Shown here piece after piece: positions 6,060-55,706 of a DNA stretch of 55,706 nucleotides. Source of the stretch: Candidatus Uhrbacteria bacterium RIFOXYC2_FULL_47_19 (GTDB lineage Bacteria > Patescibacteriota > Patescibacteriia > SG8-24); the NCBI GenBank assembly GCA_001791745.1, contig MGFG01000026.1:1-55706 (forward strand), in the 5' to 3' direction. The position numbers were made by a program, and so were the translations under genes. Below the pieces are notes generated by a model. It ran no database searches. It saw only the letters and a list, made by a program, of their open reading frames with translations, and was not told the DNA's origin. Numbering within the stretch: the stretch's first letter is position 1; each line of letters begins with the position of its first letter.

Positions 6060-6540
6060 GTAACTTGTTTTAGGTAATAATTTTTTATTACCTGCAAAAT
6101 CTTGGATCTTAGCCTAAGGGATTTTTTAAGAAATTAATTAGTGGGGATTTTTTGAAGTTTCTTATGAAACAAGGAATCAAATTTTTTTCTTCATAAGAAT
6201 GAGCCTTTTTCTAAGGAAGACGGAGAGAGGTGTTTTATCTTTTTAAGATTTTTGTGTTTTTAAGTTGTAAAACTTACTAATTTTGATTTTTTATCTTTTT
6301 AAAGTAGTTTTTTAATTTAAGCTTATTTTATAATTGTACGACACTATAAAGATGATTAGGATTAATTATTTTTTATCCACATCCATAAAAATTGATTGTG
6401 GATAATTCCTTTTTAAGATTAGAAATTCTTTAAAGTAATCCACAGAAGTTTTTATCCACAAAGAAATAATAGAAAAAGACCTAAGATTAGCGAAAAAAAC
6501 AGTGTTGATAACTTTGACCATAGCTCAGAAAAATGTTACC
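6060..6540. other. candidate replication-origin-like region (AT-rich with DnaA-box cluster)
   Basis: TTATCCACA at 6373-6381, TGTGGATAA at 6397-6405, TAATCCACA at 6436-6444, TTATCCACA at 6452-6460; very AT-rich; no convincing ORF. Confidence 0.5.
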
Positions 6541-6551
6541 ATATTATATGT

Positions 6552-7385
6552 ATGGGGAGGGCAATGGTAAAAAACAAAATGGGGATTTTTAAGATAAAAA
6601 AAACGATATATTCAGAATCCATTTTTTTGGTGATGGTTTTTACCGTCATTTTTTTTGCCTGCTGGTCTGGTGATGCAGTTGAGGCTATGAGTTCAGCTAA
6701 TTATGAGGTTACTGGTGACACCATCAGTATTGGGGGAGGTAACTCTAGTTCTGCAAGTTACGTTGCTGAAGACACTTTTGGTGATATAGCCTCAGGCGAA
6801 GACCTACAAAGCGCTAATTACAGTGGATGTTCAGGCTTTCAGTGCGTCGATGGGTCACCTTATATCAGTTTTTCCGTGAAAGAGGGGACTTCAAAACCTG
6901 GTGTGGAGGGGACAGGGGTAGCTCTGGGTTCGCTTTCTACCTCTTCAGTTACGACCTCTGATGGAGTGGGTGTAAATTCAGTCTTTGTTTTAACTGAAAC
7001 ATCTGCAGATAACGGATTGGCAGTCGGAGTCATTAGCACTTATTCTGGCTTAAAGCGATTTTCAACCTCAGACATCATCAGTTCTTCTTCGGCCACACTC
7101 TCTGCTGGTAGTGAAGGATATGGAGTTTGTGTTGGTTCAGCTGCTGAAGATTTAGACAGCCCAGATACACTTTCAGCTTCTGCGCCTTACGATGGAGTTT
7201 GTAATAAAGTCAACGGTCATGATGTGGGTTTGGTGGATGGTACACTTCGAACGATTGTTGATTCCTCGGGACAGATTAAAGGTGGAGATATTGAGATATT
7301 GGTCAAGGCCTCAATAAGTCCAGTCTCTGCAGCTGGTAATGATTACATTGATACACTGACCTTTATAGCGACAGGAACTTATTAG
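6552..7385 (+). CDS. secreted surface protein with WxL-like C-terminal motif
   Basis: Signal/TM (SIFLVMVFTVIFFACWSGDAVEA); C-terminus NDYIDTLTFIATGTY. Confidence 0.75.
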   Translation: MGRAMVKNKMGIFKIKKTIYSESIFLVMVFTVIFFACWSGDAVEAMSSANYEVTGDTISIGGGNSSSASYVAEDTFGDIASGEDLQSANYSGCSGFQCVDGSPYISFSVKEGTSKPGVEGTGVALGSLSTSSVTTSDGVGVNSVFVLTETSADNGLAVGVISTYSGLKRFSTSDIISSSSATLSAGSEGYGVCVGSAAEDLDSPDTLSASAPYDGVCNKVNGHDVGLVDGTLRTIVDSSGQIKGGDIEILVKASISPVSAAGNDYIDTLTFIATGTY

Positions 7386-50163: not shown

Positions 50164-51693
50164 TTGGTTTTTATGCCGACAAGAAGAGGGATCCAATCCG
50201 AAACGACACATGAAAAAGGATTTAATTCAGAGGTAGATAGGGAATGCGGTGAATCTCCCGTTTCGGCTGACTTTGGTTCCTTTCAAGAAGCCAGAAAGAA
50301 GCTGGGCAAACAACTCTTGGATCGGACACGTGACGAAGAGGAGATGTGTGTTACCTCTCCGGAAGAGGCGGCTGGACTAAAAGTTTTAGCTCGATTCGGT
50401 CCGTTGTCCATCCGTGAAGTGGAAAGCAAGGAAGTCCTGCGTGGAGATGCGAATTTCTCTAAATCCTTGTCGAGTTTTTGCAGCTCGGTTAGAATGTTTC
50501 TGTCTCAAAAAGATAGAGAACACCTGCAGATCTACAGTTTGGTTTCCTATTTGGAACGGTGTGCGGGTTCTGGATACATGGACGAGATAGAATTTGAGTG
50601 TTGGGGACGCGAAGAAAAGACAAATTTCAACAAAAACTTTGAGGTAATCGACAGACAGCGTCGCGGACGTGATTCCATCCGTATCTTTTACGTCAGAAGA
50701 AAAATTGAGGTTGATAGGGTTCGTCTTGAGATGGCGATGAGATTGGTGCAAGAAATCATTTCCGAAAGCGATAAATTACATGACGGCAGGTATCGGGGAA
50801 CGGTGCCTGATTCTGTCATCACGGAAAATAGAAATGTTATCTACAAATTCATCAAAAGTTTTTCTGGAGAGGAGGGGATAGAACTTCCGTGCGTTATGGA
50901 CAGCGTTACGGCTAAGTTCGCTGTAGTCGACGATCGCGTTCTCTCCAAGAGCCGGGAAAGTGAGGAGAAGAAGGATCGACTGGAAGTCAGTTTTGACTTG
51001 AGTCTCCTGACGGAAAAGGAGGTGGGTGAGATTCCTGACGCCCTGCTGCGGCTCGGAAAGATCAGCATACCCAAAAGTAGCCTGTCAGTCCTGATCGGAT
51101 ATAACGGATCGGGTAAGACCACATTGTTGAATTCCCTGCGCGTGGCCGCCAGCCACTTCGGCAGACGTTTAGGAGAGGACTATAGTGACATAGCCTGTGA
51201 TCTTGAGAAAAGAGAGTATTGGAACGGTTCCATACCGACCTTCGTTCCTAGTTTTGCCCGTACCATGGATATCGGTGGTCTCTCGGTTCCGGAAGGTGAG
51301 AATAGCGTTATCTATCTTAATTTTTCGAGATTCGCTCAGAACATAGCGTCACACAACGATTTATCGGCCAACCCACTGTCCAACATGATGAGGAAGCAGA
51401 GCGTCAACCAAGGATCGACAGGCGAATTGCAGTTGGCTTTCTTCGAGGATTCGATAAAAAAGTTTAACTTAGGTGAGTTTAAGGGTCTTTTGCTGATAGA
51501 CGAGCCGGAAAAGGGGCTTGATCCATGGAAGTTGCGGGACATGAAGAGACGGATCAGGGAAATGGCTCCGCAGGCGACCGTTATCGTAGCCACCCATAAT
51601 CCCATGCTGGCCTTCGATAAGGAGATAAGGAGGATAGACCTGCGTTTCCCAGAGAGGGGTTACCACGAGAACCAAGAGGAAGAAATGTTCTGA
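50164..51693 (+). CDS. ABC/SMC-like AAA ATPase (RecF/AAA_21-like)
   Basis: Walker A VLIGYNGSGKTTLLNSL; STGELQ; Walker B GLLLIDEPEKGLD; H-loop VIVATHNPML; ~290-aa N-terminal region of unknown type. Confidence 0.78.
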   Translation: MVFMPTRRGIQSETTHEKGFNSEVDRECGESPVSADFGSFQEARKKLGKQLLDRTRDEEEMCVTSPEEAAGLKVLARFGPLSIREVESKEVLRGDANFSKSLSSFCSSVRMFLSQKDREHLQIYSLVSYLERCAGSGYMDEIEFECWGREEKTNFNKNFEVIDRQRRGRDSIRIFYVRRKIEVDRVRLEMAMRLVQEIISESDKLHDGRYRGTVPDSVITENRNVIYKFIKSFSGEEGIELPCVMDSVTAKFAVVDDRVLSKSRESEEKKDRLEVSFDLSLLTEKEVGEIPDALLRLGKISIPKSSLSVLIGYNGSGKTTLLNSLRVAASHFGRRLGEDYSDIACDLEKREYWNGSIPTFVPSFARTMDIGGLSVPEGENSVIYLNFSRFAQNIASHNDLSANPLSNMMRKQSVNQGSTGELQLAFFEDSIKKFNLGEFKGLLLIDEPEKGLDPWKLRDMKRRIREMAPQATVIVATHNPMLAFDKEIRRIDLRFPERGYHENQEEEMF

Positions 51694-51754: not shown

Positions 51755-51811
51755 TTCCGCCTCGAACGAAACAGCCGCCACCCGCAAGAGGTGACGGCCG
51801 TTTCATGGAGC
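51755..51811 (+). repeat. 57-bp direct repeat (hairpin-forming), left copy
   Basis: ttccgcctcgaacgaaacRgccgccacccgcaagaggtgacggccRtttcRtggagc; ~3 mismatches to 54714-54770. Confidence 0.9.
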
Positions 51812-51820
51812 TGTTTTTAT

Positions 51821-51997
51821 GCGGAAGCTCGAACTTTTTTTGAAGAGAACATTTGAGAAAGTGTTTCATTTCGCTCCGCTTTCGCTCGCAAATTTTTGAG
51901 AAATTTGCGTTTCAAAACAGAAAAATTTTCCTCCAATTTTTTCGATTTCGCGCCCCCCCAATTTTTCAAAAAAGGAAAAGAAAATTTTTGTTTTGGA
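51821..51997 (+). repeat. ~178-bp inverted repeat, left arm
   Basis: By eye the exact reverse complement of 54541-54719 except poly-C (7) versus poly-G (9). Confidence 0.93.
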
Positions 51998-52171
51998 TTT
52001 TTGTGAAACAAAAAGGCGGAAGCGGGGCTACGGCCTACGAATAAAAGGAAAGCGTACTTGACCCACCCAAACCCATTCGCGCACGCTTAAATCAATATAA
52101 CTCCCTTTTGGGATTTTAGCAGGGGTTTAGCGCCTTTTGTAAAATTTAAAAAGGCTTGGCAGCTACTTTAC

Positions 52172-52206
52172 TTGACTAAATCACTGCACTATGCTAAAGT
52201 GCCAGT
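52172..52206 (+). promoter_or_regulatory. promoter with apparently leaderless start
   Basis: TTGACT-N17-TAAAGT-gccagt-ATG. Confidence 0.65.
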
Positions 52207-52521
52207 ATGGATTGGAATGACAAAGGAAAAGAGCAGTTAATAAAGGCAATTTTATTGCTTAAAAACGCTGATGAAACACAGCGATTTTTGCGTGACTTGA
52301 TGACAGAAAAAGAAATCAAGGAGTTCGCAAAACGACTAAAAGCAGCGGAAATGCTTACAGAAAAAATACCATATTCTACAATCGAAAAAGAGACTGGCTT
52401 AAGTTCAACTACTGTTGCTCGTGTTGCAAAGTGGTTAAATGGAAAAGGCGGTGGCTACAAAATAATTATAAATAAACTCCATCATCATAACTCTATCCAA
52501 TCACGGAGAGGGTTGTCTTGA
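52207..52521 (+). CDS. YerC/YecD-type TrpR-like repressor
   Basis: LRDLMTEKEIKEFAKRLKAAEMLTEKIPYSTIEKETGLSSTTVARVAKWLNGKGGGY. Confidence 0.85.
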   Translation: MDWNDKGKEQLIKAILLLKNADETQRFLRDLMTEKEIKEFAKRLKAAEMLTEKIPYSTIEKETGLSSTTVARVAKWLNGKGGGYKIIINKLHHHNSIQSRRGLS

Positions 52522-52574
52522 TGTAATTTCTCATCATCGCATGAACATAACCCCCTCCGTAATTGGAGGGGGTT
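52497..52574 (+). promoter_or_regulatory. candidate attenuator: alternative antiterminator and terminator helices
   Basis: ccaatcacggagagggtt (52497-52514) can pair with aaccccctccgtaattgg (52549-52566), which otherwise forms accccctcc-gtaatt-ggagggggt plus ttta. Confidence 0.5.
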
Positions 52575-52632
52575 TACGTTTGCCTACCCACAATAAAACG
52601 GTAAACACAGTTCTTTAAAAAAGGAGAGAATC

Positions 52633-53520
52633 ATGCAGAAGCTCATCAGTTACTTCACAGACGGAATCTCGTCGGGGACGCTTCAGACAATTGGAGCGGA
52701 AGTCGAAACGCAGTTTGTGGACAAGGACGGCAAAGCAGTCCAGACCCAAACGTCTCAACAAATGTTGAGACACCTCGCCGAAAATGGTTGGGAAGTTGAT
52801 TGCCGTAAAGACAATCTCATCACAACCCTTGTTGATCAGAACGACAACAAAATTTTCTACGAGCTTGGCCGTCACAACATGGAGGTTTCAACGGCGGCCT
52901 CAACTTCCGCTTGCGTCCTCGATGTTATGCGGAAATGTCTTGCTCAACTCTACGAGTCCGCTCGAAGAGTTGGTGCGGAGCCGTTCTTCGCACCGATACT
53001 ATTTGGCGAAGAAGACCTACTGGTCATTCCCGACGAGAGAGACGCAGTCTGGTTGGAATTGGACGGACGAAACGCCCTTGCTCCGCTTGCGCGTACGTCA
53101 TCGGTTCAATTCACAATCTCGGTTTCTCCGCAGGATGCCATGAAAATCTTGAACAAGTTCGGGAAAAAGGTCGGTTCGTTCTTGACGGATTTTCCGCAAG
53201 ACGCGGTTTGGAAACGATACATCGTGGACTCGTCCGCGAAATATCTTTCTAACCGGTATGGTGGTCCTCTGGCATTCGAGTCGTTGGAGGATTACTGCCA
53301 AGCTCTTGTCCGACACGATGTTGTTCAAGGAGCGCGTCTCGTGCCGTTTCAGGATGTTAGTAATCTGGAGATATCTCTCTACCTACGCAGTATTTGGTGG
53401 CACTTCAGGCTCAAGCGTTATGGCAACGCTTTGTGCATTGAGGTACGCCCCATGGCTCGTAGGACAGACGAACAATTCCAACACCAACTAGATAAGGTGT
53501 TGGCAATCGTCTGCGCATAG
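52633..53520 (+). CDS. GCS2-like carboxylate-amine ligase (glutamate-cysteine ligase family)
   Basis: IGAEVETQFVD, YELGRHNMEVSTA, TSSVQFTISVSP, NALCIEVRPMARRTDEQ; SD aaaggagagaatcatg. Confidence 0.65.
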   Translation: MQKLISYFTDGISSGTLQTIGAEVETQFVDKDGKAVQTQTSQQMLRHLAENGWEVDCRKDNLITTLVDQNDNKIFYELGRHNMEVSTAASTSACVLDVMRKCLAQLYESARRVGAEPFFAPILFGEEDLLVIPDERDAVWLELDGRNALAPLARTSSVQFTISVSPQDAMKILNKFGKKVGSFLTDFPQDAVWKRYIVDSSAKYLSNRYGGPLAFESLEDYCQALVRHDVVQGARLVPFQDVSNLEISLYLRSIWWHFRLKRYGNALCIEVRPMARRTDEQFQHQLDKVLAIVCA

Positions 53521-53528
53521 CGCAAAAA

Positions 53529-53558
53529 CCTTGTGTGGTCTAACGACTACACAAGGCT
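53529..53558. terminator. shared hairpin between convergent genes
   Basis: ccttgtgt-ggtctaacgact-acacaagg flanked by A- and T-runs. Confidence 0.75.
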
Positions 53559-54374
53559 TTCTTTTTCTTCGCCTAAAAGAAAAACTTCGTCGCCAACTTT
53601 TGTGCCTTTGTGAGCAAAGAGTATTAGACTTTGCTTTGAAGTTTTTACTTCTTCTTGTCCGTCAATTCCGATAAGTTGATTTTCTTTCAACACCTCAAAA
53701 TTCTCAAATAGCTTCGACAAAGTAAATTTATCTGTTTTTGCGAAATATTTTTTGAACATTCGAACGTAGGCCTGTTTTTGCGGAATAAGATTATTTTTTA
53801 TGTGTCCTCTCGCTTTCAGAAAAGCAAAAACACTTTCTTCCGCTATTTTTATTGATTGTGGATCTTTCATGTAGCCACACTCCAAGCATATTCCCACTTT
53901 CCCAATACTGTTCATGTAATAATCTGTTCCACCCGGTTCTACTTTGTCGAAGCCAGACACTACAAGGTTAATTGGAAAAAATTTTACAATTTCTTTTGCA
54001 TTTGCTTCGCAAATTGCAAACGCCTTACTGTTTGGGATAGAGCTTGCATGTATATCGAGAAGTGCCTCGGCTTCGTTAAGATAATTTTTCAGAAATTGGG
54101 CGCGACCATATTCATAACTTTCTTTCTCACTTGTGGTAAATTGTTCATTGCGATTGAACATTCTATTCAAGTTGACTTCTGTATATCGTTTGTTCGTTTC
54201 AATCGCTCGCGGGTTTCCATAGCCAAATAAAACTGTCCCGCGCTCAATTTCGAGGTTTGGTAAAATTTTTTCCAATGCTTCCACTCCGCATTTTTCGTCA
54301 CCATGCACACCAACTAGAACGATACTGATCGTCCCTTTTTCTCTACCGTTGAGTTGAATTATTTTTTCAAACAT
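53547..54374 (-). CDS. succinylglutamate desuccinylase/aspartoacylase (AstE/AspA)-like zinc hydrolase
   Basis: VGVHGDEKCG, VNLNRMF, LLDIHAS, CLECGY. Confidence 0.78.
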   Translation of the reverse strand: MFEKIIQLNGREKGTISIVLVGVHGDEKCGVEALEKILPNLEIERGTVLFGYGNPRAIETNKRYTEVNLNRMFNRNEQFTTSEKESYEYGRAQFLKNYLNEAEALLDIHASSIPNSKAFAICEANAKEIVKFFPINLVVSGFDKVEPGGTDYYMNSIGKVGICLECGYMKDPQSIKIAEESVFAFLKARGHIKNNLIPQKQAYVRMFKKYFAKTDKFTLSKLFENFEVLKENQLIGIDGQEEVKTSKQSLILFAHKGTKVGDEVFLLGEEKESLV

Positions 54375-54409
54375 ACTGGCACTTTAACAAACTAAAGCAA
54401 CCAGGTCAA
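54375..54409 (-). promoter_or_regulatory. promoter with apparently leaderless start
   Basis: Reverse strand TTGACC-N17-TAAAGT-gccagt-ATG. Confidence 0.65.
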
Positions 54410-54540
54410 GAGGAGTGAATGCCGTTGGGAATTTCGCAATGTCGCCAGCGTTGGGTTGGGTGGGACAATGGCGACCAAAAGTATAAATGGCTATAATAAT
54501 TGCTTCTGCCGTCCAGCTCTTTCGAAAAAGAGACTGGACT

Positions 54541-54719
54541 TCCAAAACAAAAATTTTCTTTTCCTTTTTTGAAAAATTGGGGGGGGGCGCGAAATCGAAA
54601 AAATTGGAGGAAAATTTTTCTGTTTTGAAACGCAAATTTCTCAAAAATTTGCGAGCGAAAGCGGAGCGAAATGAAACACTTTCTCAAATGTTCTCTTCAA
54701 AAAAAGTTCGAGCTTCCGC
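54541..54719 (-). repeat. ~178-bp inverted repeat, right arm
   Basis: Reverse complement of 51821-51997 with poly-G9. Confidence 0.93.
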
Positions 54720-54770
54720 CTCGAACGAAACGGCCGCCACCCGCAAGAGGTGACGGCCATTTCGTGGAGC
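54714..54770 (+). repeat. 57-bp direct repeat, right copy
   Basis: Matches 51755-51811 in the same orientation. Confidence 0.9.
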
Positions 54771-54783
54771 GGGTGACGGGAAT
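54765..54783 (-). pseudogene. tRNA-Gly 3'-end fragment (possible attachment-site remnant)
   Basis: tggagcgggtgacgggaat, identical to 54973-54991. Confidence 0.65.
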
Positions 54784-54972: not shown

Positions 54973-55046
54973 TGGAGCGGGTGACGGGAATCGAACCCAC
55001 GTAGCCACCTTGGAAGAGTGGTGTTCTACCATTGAACTACACCCGC
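54973..55046 (-). tRNA. tRNA-Gly (TCC)
   Basis: Reverse strand GCGGGTG...CTTCCAA...GGGTTCGATTCCC...CACCCGCTCCA. Confidence 0.92.
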
Positions 55047-55185: not shown

Positions 55186-55222
55186 TGGTGCCGAGGGCCA
55201 GGATTGAACTGGCGACACGAGG
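55186..55222 (-). pseudogene. tRNA-Phe 3'-half fragment
   Basis: 37 nt identical to 55250-55286. Confidence 0.85.
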
Positions 55223-55386: not shown

Positions 55387-55418
55387 GTCCTCTGCTCTAC
55401 CACTGAGCTACCTCGGCA
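55387..55418 (-). pseudogene. tRNA-Phe 5'-half fragment
   Basis: 32 nt identical to 55294-55325. Confidence 0.85.

Positions 55419-55529: not shown

Positions 55530-55706
<177 letters not shown>

Follow-up and report, generated by a model that had tools for sequence, protein, structure and literature searches.

The window analysed here is one entire contig (MGFG01000026.1, 55,706 nt) of the genome of Candidatus Uhrbacteria bacterium RIFOXYC2_FULL_47_19 (34 contigs, 1.04 Mb), and its named homologues fall within the Patescibacteria. Near its right end (51755-54770) lies a cassette of three genes that code for a TrpR-family repressor (YerC), a ligase resembling the GCS2 carboxylate-amine ligases and an AstE-like hydrolase. 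We propose, with a probability of about 0.6, that this cassette is a module for histidine starvation, governed by two nested histidine sensors, which moves horizontally among Patescibacteria auxotrophic for histidine. Both sensors are strongly indicated by the sequence: the repressor would act on operators at both promoters, and a predicted histidine attenuator, whose leader peptide would be the repressor's own C-terminus, precedes the ligase. The features involved are:

52172..52200, + strand: hisR promoter with -35 TTGACT, 17-nt spacer and -10 TAAAGT, six bases from the ATG (leaderless layout); from sequence
52182..52201, no strand: predicted HisR operator CACTGCACTATGCTAAAGTG, 2 mismatches to cacTTTAn6TAAAgtg, covering the hisR -10; from a site scan
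52207..52521, + strand: hisR (yerC), 104 aa, with the attenuator leader KLHHHNSIQSRRGLS as its 15 C-terminal residues; open reading frame and profile searches
52477..52578, + strand: predicted His attenuator with a pause helix, an antiterminator (52503-52516 with 52547-52560) and a terminator (52549-52558 with 52565-52574); helix prediction and covariation
52480..52488, + strand: three tandem His codons (CATCATCAT) in the leader; from sequence
52633..53520, + strand: GCS2-like carboxylate-amine ligase, 295 aa, of an unnamed family; open reading frame and fold search
53547..54374, - strand: AstE/AspA-family hydrolase, 275 aa, with H24, E27 and H109 conserved; open reading frame and profile searches
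54380..54399, no strand: predicted HisR operator covering the astE -10, read as TGCTTTAGTTTGTTAAAGTG on the - strand, with 2 mismatches; from a site scan
54381..54409, - strand: astE promoter with -35 TTGACC, 17-nt spacer and -10 TAAAGT, six bases from the ATG; from sequence

HisR is a relative of TrpR that takes histidine as corepressor and recognises the 20-bp operator cacTTTAn6TAAAgtg, and the HisR of R. gnavus binds DNA in a histidine-dependent manner in vitro (Ashniev et al. 2022, PMC9413887). Judged by its profile matches (TIGR02531, 74.3 bits against a cut-off of 42.2; PF01371, 72.4 against 27), the YerC of the cassette is such a HisR. Within the 55.7-kb window, operator-like sequences with no more than two mismatches occur only at 52182 (hisR) and 54380 (astE), where 0.2 would be expected per strand, and both of these predicted operators overlie the -10, six bases ahead of the ATG. 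Operator sites are also present at both ends of the cassettes L005 and L018 and of L125 and L126, in which a GNAT acetyltransferase takes the place of the ligase. They are found at one end in L007, L084 and L089, the site upstream of hisR in L084 being perfect. The predicted regulation of the cassette by histidine is well supported. The original prediction had given the cassette its own regulator, and this part stands, the regulator being a HisR repressor; the histidine signal, the operators at both promoters and the C-terminal His leader had all escaped it.

The second sensor lies in the tail of the repressor. The HisR C-terminus, which ends in LHHHNSIQSRRGLS and the stop, reads as the leader peptide of a His attenuator ahead of the GCS2-like gene. 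The HisR proteins of the window, L005 and L007 terminate in KLHHHNSIQSRRGLS or a close variant of it, and the stop falls within three mutually exclusive helices that are followed by the terminator and then by the ligase. The His codons and the mutually exclusive helices are found in 9/9 GCS2-like loci, with HisR tails such as SGSHHSNSSSGKGLR (L017) and RISHHHNHSFEKRLS (L019). Three of the nine have instead free-standing leaders on the same structure, namely MNLTFAKSYHHNFLFFGRGLS (genome G201), MNIIFGNFYHHNFLFLGRGLS (Collierbacteria) and MLFAINTSHHHSTSVARGG (Kaiserbacteria). Across the nine sequences the antiterminator shows 11 doubly changed cells, a count that was reached by 0/500 shuffles and that beats every slid version of the pairing; the terminator by itself shows little covariation in this set. 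When 27 leaders were aligned with MAFFT without a structure reference, the top covarying pairs were mainly those of the antiterminator and the terminator, together with some cross-pairings.

A covariance model of the attenuator (R1) has matches in 32/389 genomes of the class, a minority of the weaker ones without a clear His leader. The leader is usually the hisR tail, also for most of the minus-strand matches. The genes before and after the matches are information that was not built into the model, and those on the 3' side code for HisG, HisI, the GCS2-like ligase, GNAT, a radical SAM protein and a phosphoribosyltransferase-like protein. HisG follows the attenuator in L080 and L081 (by profile) and HisI in L082 and L068 (read from sequence). 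In L080 and L081 no further his gene was recognised nearby. The radical SAM protein follows a hisR-tail His attenuator in three genomes (L085:1992-3098; L048; L056), and phosphoribosyltransferase-like genes stand behind the free His leaders QHHHHTD.., SHHAYS.. and NHHHDRL.. in L086, L087 and L070. No riboswitch, T-box or Rfam leader was found at curated cut-offs, and a permissive scan of the attenuator loci gave weak matches at chance level; the Rfam His_leader model (RF00514) had no match at these loci. Literature searches returned no paper on attenuation in Patescibacteria or the Candidate Phyla Radiation.

The enzyme placed under both sensors was more difficult to assign. None of the 9 ligase family members matches Pfam and a PDB sequence search with the ligase gave nothing significant, so that a fold search was needed. 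An AlphaFold model built from 9 sequences (mean predicted local distance difference test score, pLDDT, 75; predicted template modelling score, pTM, 0.76) had as its best Foldseek match the plant glutamate-cysteine ligase (2.2e-7, probability 1.0), followed by glutamine synthetase and YbdK. This is the glutamate-cysteine ligase / glutamine synthetase fold, and the GCS2 assignment by the model is good at the fold level only. The conserved motifs GAEVETQ, FYELGRHNMEVST and RSIWWHFRLKRYGN.LCIEVRP resemble the acidic motifs for metal and ATP in GCS2 enzymes. Compared with the plant enzyme (2GWC) and E. coli YbdK (1R8G), the predicted fold is alike, with a template modelling score by query of about 0.5-0.6 for both, but identity is 12-18%, there is no Pfam match, the protein has about 295 aa and it would be controlled by histidine. 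In L007 and L009 the cassette of one metagenome-assembled genome is split over two contigs that overlap by 78 nt within the ligase; in L009 the astE promoter is truncated right after the ychF stop codon.

The hydrolase is easier to place. It carries the AstE-like domain PF24827 (1.4e-20), and H24, E27 and H109, presumably the metal ligands of the AstE/AspA family, are invariant across 8 AstE-like sequences. Its score is 47.4 bits against an AstE equivalog cut-off of 305.65, and it also falls well under the NCBIfam aspartoacylase cut-off. Like AstE and AspA it thus has a catalytic domain above the Pfam cut-off and keeps the metal-site residues, but it is paired with a maker, placed under histidine control and well below the NCBIfam cut-offs. 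Of the family assignments first made for the cassette, YerC/TrpR and AstE-like were borne out by profile, and GCS2 at the fold level alone, there being no Pfam family match.

What argues most for a make-and-break pair is the exchange of partners. The convergent layout in which hisR and the maker face AstE recurs with a GCS2-like maker in the window, L005, L007+L009 and L018, in agreement with the adjacency that had been suggested as a check, and with a GNAT maker in five cassettes (L084, L089, L125, L126 and L134). In L093 the order is hisR, GNAT, AstE. On the other side, a gamma-glutamyl cyclotransferase (GGACT) replaces AstE in L008, in L017 and, in a degraded version, in L019. The idea that the cassette makes and breaks an amide is therefore backed by non-homologous replacement on both sides: unrelated enzymes substitute for the maker and for the breaker under the same control, which is what speaks most strongly for the two enzymes acylating and deacylating as a pair. 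L089 has an additional AstE-family gene (L089:2019-2936) immediately upstream of the cassette astE and on the same strand. There is also a tryptophan counterpart (L094:2834-4577, G673:C4), in which the leader MCKVCKNSTWLWTV, with a terminator of its own, comes after a TrpR-like repressor and ahead of GNAT and AstE-like genes; the ATG of this leader overlaps the trpR stop, and the palindrome TACTATC..GATAGTA lies upstream of trpR.

The genomic context also revolves around histidine. HisD is absent in 10/10 genomes tested (the nine ligase hosts and the congener G001) and present in 13/14 control genomes. Solo GCS2-like genes are located near hisS in L006, L008 and L011, and L008 also holds a gamma-glutamyl cyclotransferase and a protein nearest to histidine racemases, below the curated cut-off. 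AstE relatives stand beside hisS and tRNA-His (L132, L133), with hisS, HutH and a racemase-like gene (L131), with HutH and a racemase-like gene (L127, L128), or with GNAT and then hisS (L119/L141). A histidine ammonia-lyase was seen near AstE in L127, L128 and L131 (with a histidine-racemase-like gene) and in L131 and L133 (with hisS and tRNA-His).

The distribution of the ligase is patchy. It is absent from the 97 relatives searched and was found in 1 other of 389 genomes across the phylum, in 4 others of 389 in the class (one a weak fragment) and in 3/289 genomes of another class, all of one genus. The ligase is 69% identical to the copy in Collierbacteria, another class, while RuvC of the window genome is 55-66% identical to that of other genera of its own family (85% to the congener); such an identity across classes, above that of RuvC within the family, points to horizontal transfer. 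The original prediction had called for a comparison with sister genomes in search of an empty site, and in G003, G007 and G008 the ruvC-to-tRNA-Gly interval is without the cassette at the same place. Family member G003 has the GNAT form of the cassette, and in the congener G001 neither the ligase nor the cassette AstE was found; the contig of G001 ends at this place in what reads as IS30-like transposase sequence. An AAA/AbiEii-type ATPase gene beside the cassette (50164-51693) was found in 0/18 relatives and is an accessory gene of the same variable spot. Carriage as plasmid or phage cargo was considered and rejected, the ligase having no tblastn match in PLSDB or INPHARED and none in IMG/VR.

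The ends of the cassette point to tRNA genes, as the following features illustrate:

51755..51811, no strand: 57-bp direct repeat, left copy, a terminator-like hairpin whose end TGGAGC has the 3'-end letters of tRNA-Gly; from sequence
54714..54770, no strand: 57-bp direct repeat, right copy; from sequence
54765..54783, no strand: 19 bp identical to the 3' end of tRNA-Gly (54973-54991), a possible attachment scar; sequence comparison
54973..55046, - strand: intact tRNA-Gly, 3' end towards the cassette; tRNA annotation

The hairpin of the direct repeat abuts tRNA-Gly 3'-end sequence, and the right copy extends into the 19-bp exact copy. L005 likewise has a 39-nt partial copy of its own tRNA-Ala. 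L018 and L084 are near tRNA genes, and no partial tRNA copy was found in L018. These observations fit tRNA-targeted integration in trans but are not proof of it. Mobility, which had been suggested from the window sequence, is supported by the absence of the cassette in three family members, the partial tRNA copies and the high cross-class identity, and we hold it with moderate confidence. The 57-bp repeat was also considered as an integron attC site and rejected, since the GTTRRRY / RYYYAAC core pair was not seen by eye and the repeat reads as a terminator hairpin followed by a tRNA 3' end. Further to the right, exact partial copies of tRNA-Phe lie at 55186-55222 and 55387-55418, one side carrying the 3' half and the other the 5' half. 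Tandem tRNA-like fragments also run from 55536 to 55706, past the contig end; together these copies may be either scars of repeated integration or an assembly artefact.

How the parts would work together can be outlined. Histidine-bound HisR would occupy the operators over the -10 of both the hisR promoter and the astE promoter, which faces inward; a drop in free histidine would release HisR and let both transcripts start. As long as charged tRNA-His is plentiful, the ribosome would reach the hisR stop, the terminator would form and the ligase would not be transcribed. A ribosome stalled at the three His codons would allow the antiterminator to form and transcription to enter the GCS2-like gene. 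With two sensors, AstE would follow free histidine and the ligase would additionally require uncharged tRNA-His. The chemistry would be acylation and deacylation of histidine or a close relative. The GCS2-like enzyme would spend ATP to link an acyl group, probably gamma-glutamyl, to the amino group as an amide, and AstE would hydrolyse this amide, giving a cycle between free and acylated forms. Such a cycle would trap or store scavenged, scarce histidine in cells that do not synthesise it, or recover histidine from N-acyl forms. The cassette itself would come and go near tRNA genes, presumably moved by functions supplied in trans.

A very different explanation is that the cassette is an invertible or transposing unit defined by the inverted repeat that encloses it, with the genes as cargo. 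The arms are:

51821..51997, no strand: 178-bp inverted repeat, left arm; sequence comparison and BLAST
54541..54719, no strand: 178-bp inverted repeat, right arm; sequence comparison and BLAST

The near-identity of the arms reported earlier was confirmed: they are reverse complements over their full length (177 and 179 bp; BLAST identity 98.9% across 179 columns) and differ solely in a C7 versus a G9 tract. The 57-bp direct repeat outside them was also found as described, its right copy sharing 6 bp with the right arm and its left copy stopping 9 bp before the left one. The copies of the direct repeat are identical at 54/57 positions, and since the arms have a single homopolymer difference against three mismatches in the direct repeats, the arms should be recent or homogenised; this and the patchy distribution would suit such a unit. 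But the pair is the only one in the 1.04-Mb genome, the proposed search of related genomes gave no arm copy at any sister cassette examined nor in 13 other genomes (where the sole match was a 40-nt piece of the direct-repeat hairpin, in one family member), and the 29-bp core of the arms has no match in IMG/VR viral contigs. The arms do not recur as transposon ends would, and that reading was rejected. Between them there is no transposase gene, as the original prediction had already remarked, nor a gene for a recombinase. Because both promoters sit inside the arms and would stay attached to their own genes, inversion would leave expression unchanged, and we have rejected an invertible switch as a functional explanation. 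The functional role first attributed to the 178-bp repeat is not supported, and we consider this explanation very improbable. What recurs across several cassettes is, from the loci compared, a far shorter inverted pair, namely the twin promoter/operator regions, which account for the long-range inverted repeats seen in L005 (80 nt) and in L126 (40 nt). The cassette was also described as AT-rich; its guanine-cytosine content is indeed lower (43.5%), but the effect is modest (about 46-48% alongside).

Two other rivals concern the enzymes. A toxin-antitoxin-like addiction cassette, in which the ligase or GNAT would make something toxic and AstE would counteract it, would suit a small, mobile, self-regulated, convergent unit near a tRNA hot spot, and known toxins include GNATs that acetylate aminoacyl-tRNA. 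The histidine operators and His codons, with the same control ahead of HisG and HisI, favour metabolism, however, and solo ligases occur near hisS without AstE, so that we give this rival little credence. Somewhat unlikely, in our opinion, is that the regulation is as proposed but free histidine is not what the pair works on: external dipeptides or N-acyl- or gamma-glutamyl-histidine would be the source from which AstE or GGACT recovers histidine, and the maker would have another starvation task, e.g. acylating competing amino acids, histidine analogues or, as the GNAT toxins do, aminoacyl-tRNA. Both genes are predicted to be on at low histidine, which suits release more than capture, and the histidine-racemase-like, HutH and dipeptidase-like neighbours suggest salvage. 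Against this, the compact cassettes always pair a maker with an acyl or gamma-glutamyl amide hydrolase, even after either partner is replaced. The histidine-starvation module that we favour has weak points of its own. A ligase that consumes histidine when induced by its starvation is not obviously useful, and for this reason the substrate may be something else. Nor does the ligase match any named GCS2 family in sequence, and residues 127-153 of its model are uncertain (pLDDT below 50). The L018 ligase (G571; L018:6793-7473) is without about 68 residues and the leader frame there ends early, with RLHHDNSH and a stop before segment 2, while in L019 (G500, 6279-7092) the ligase and GGACT genes are disrupted and merge into one another. 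Covariance model R1 includes the His-codon columns and is thus biased to His leaders, and no integrase lies within the cassette.

Comparison with known systems helps to delimit what is particular here. The HisR regulons described in Firmicutes and others (Ashniev et al. 2022, PMC9413887) share with the cassette a TrpR-family repressor, a 20-bp operator, autoregulation and the histidine logic. They comprise his biosynthesis and transport. The cassette would instead place a GCS2-like ligase and an AstE hydrolase under HisR, in cells that have no HisD, and adds an attenuator encoded within the 3' end of hisR. The main text of that work makes no mention of Patescibacteria, acetyltransferases or deacylases. 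The proteobacterial his-operon attenuator (RF00514) and the His attenuators of Firmicutes also have tandem His codons, 1:2, 2:3 and 3:4 helices and a terminator before the structural gene. The cassette attenuator differs in matching no Rfam leader model at cut-off, in its target gene and, in most loci, in that the leader is the C-terminus of the repressor and not a free peptide. For the GNAT of the sister cassettes, human NAT16 is a GNAT that acetylates histidine as proposed here (histidine N-acetyltransferase; PMC12219266); it is eukaryotic, without such an operon, and serves as an analogy only.

Amino-acid sensing and management in Patescibacteria, which lack most amino-acid biosynthesis, is largely an open question. 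The analysis links a ligase family without a name and a subfamily of AstE to histidine starvation, and the covariance model flags, within the phylum, further unnamed genes that are likely controlled by histidine (a radical SAM family, phosphoribosyltransferase-like proteins and small proteins). The two-sensor switch fits in about 400 bp, with the 3' end of the repressor gene as attenuator leader; since the HisR-type leader is usually the C-terminus of the repressor, one short gene would sense both the free amino acid and tRNA charging. The tryptophan version suggests a general principle. Tentatively, and at somewhat less than even odds, Patescibacteria may hold portable, amino-acid-specific acylation/deacylation modules, with a GCS2-like or GNAT maker and an AstE or gamma-glutamyl cyclotransferase breaker, each under a cognate repressor (HisR or TrpR) and a tRNA-charging attenuator, that would trap, store or recover the scarce amino acids needed by cells that do not synthesise them.

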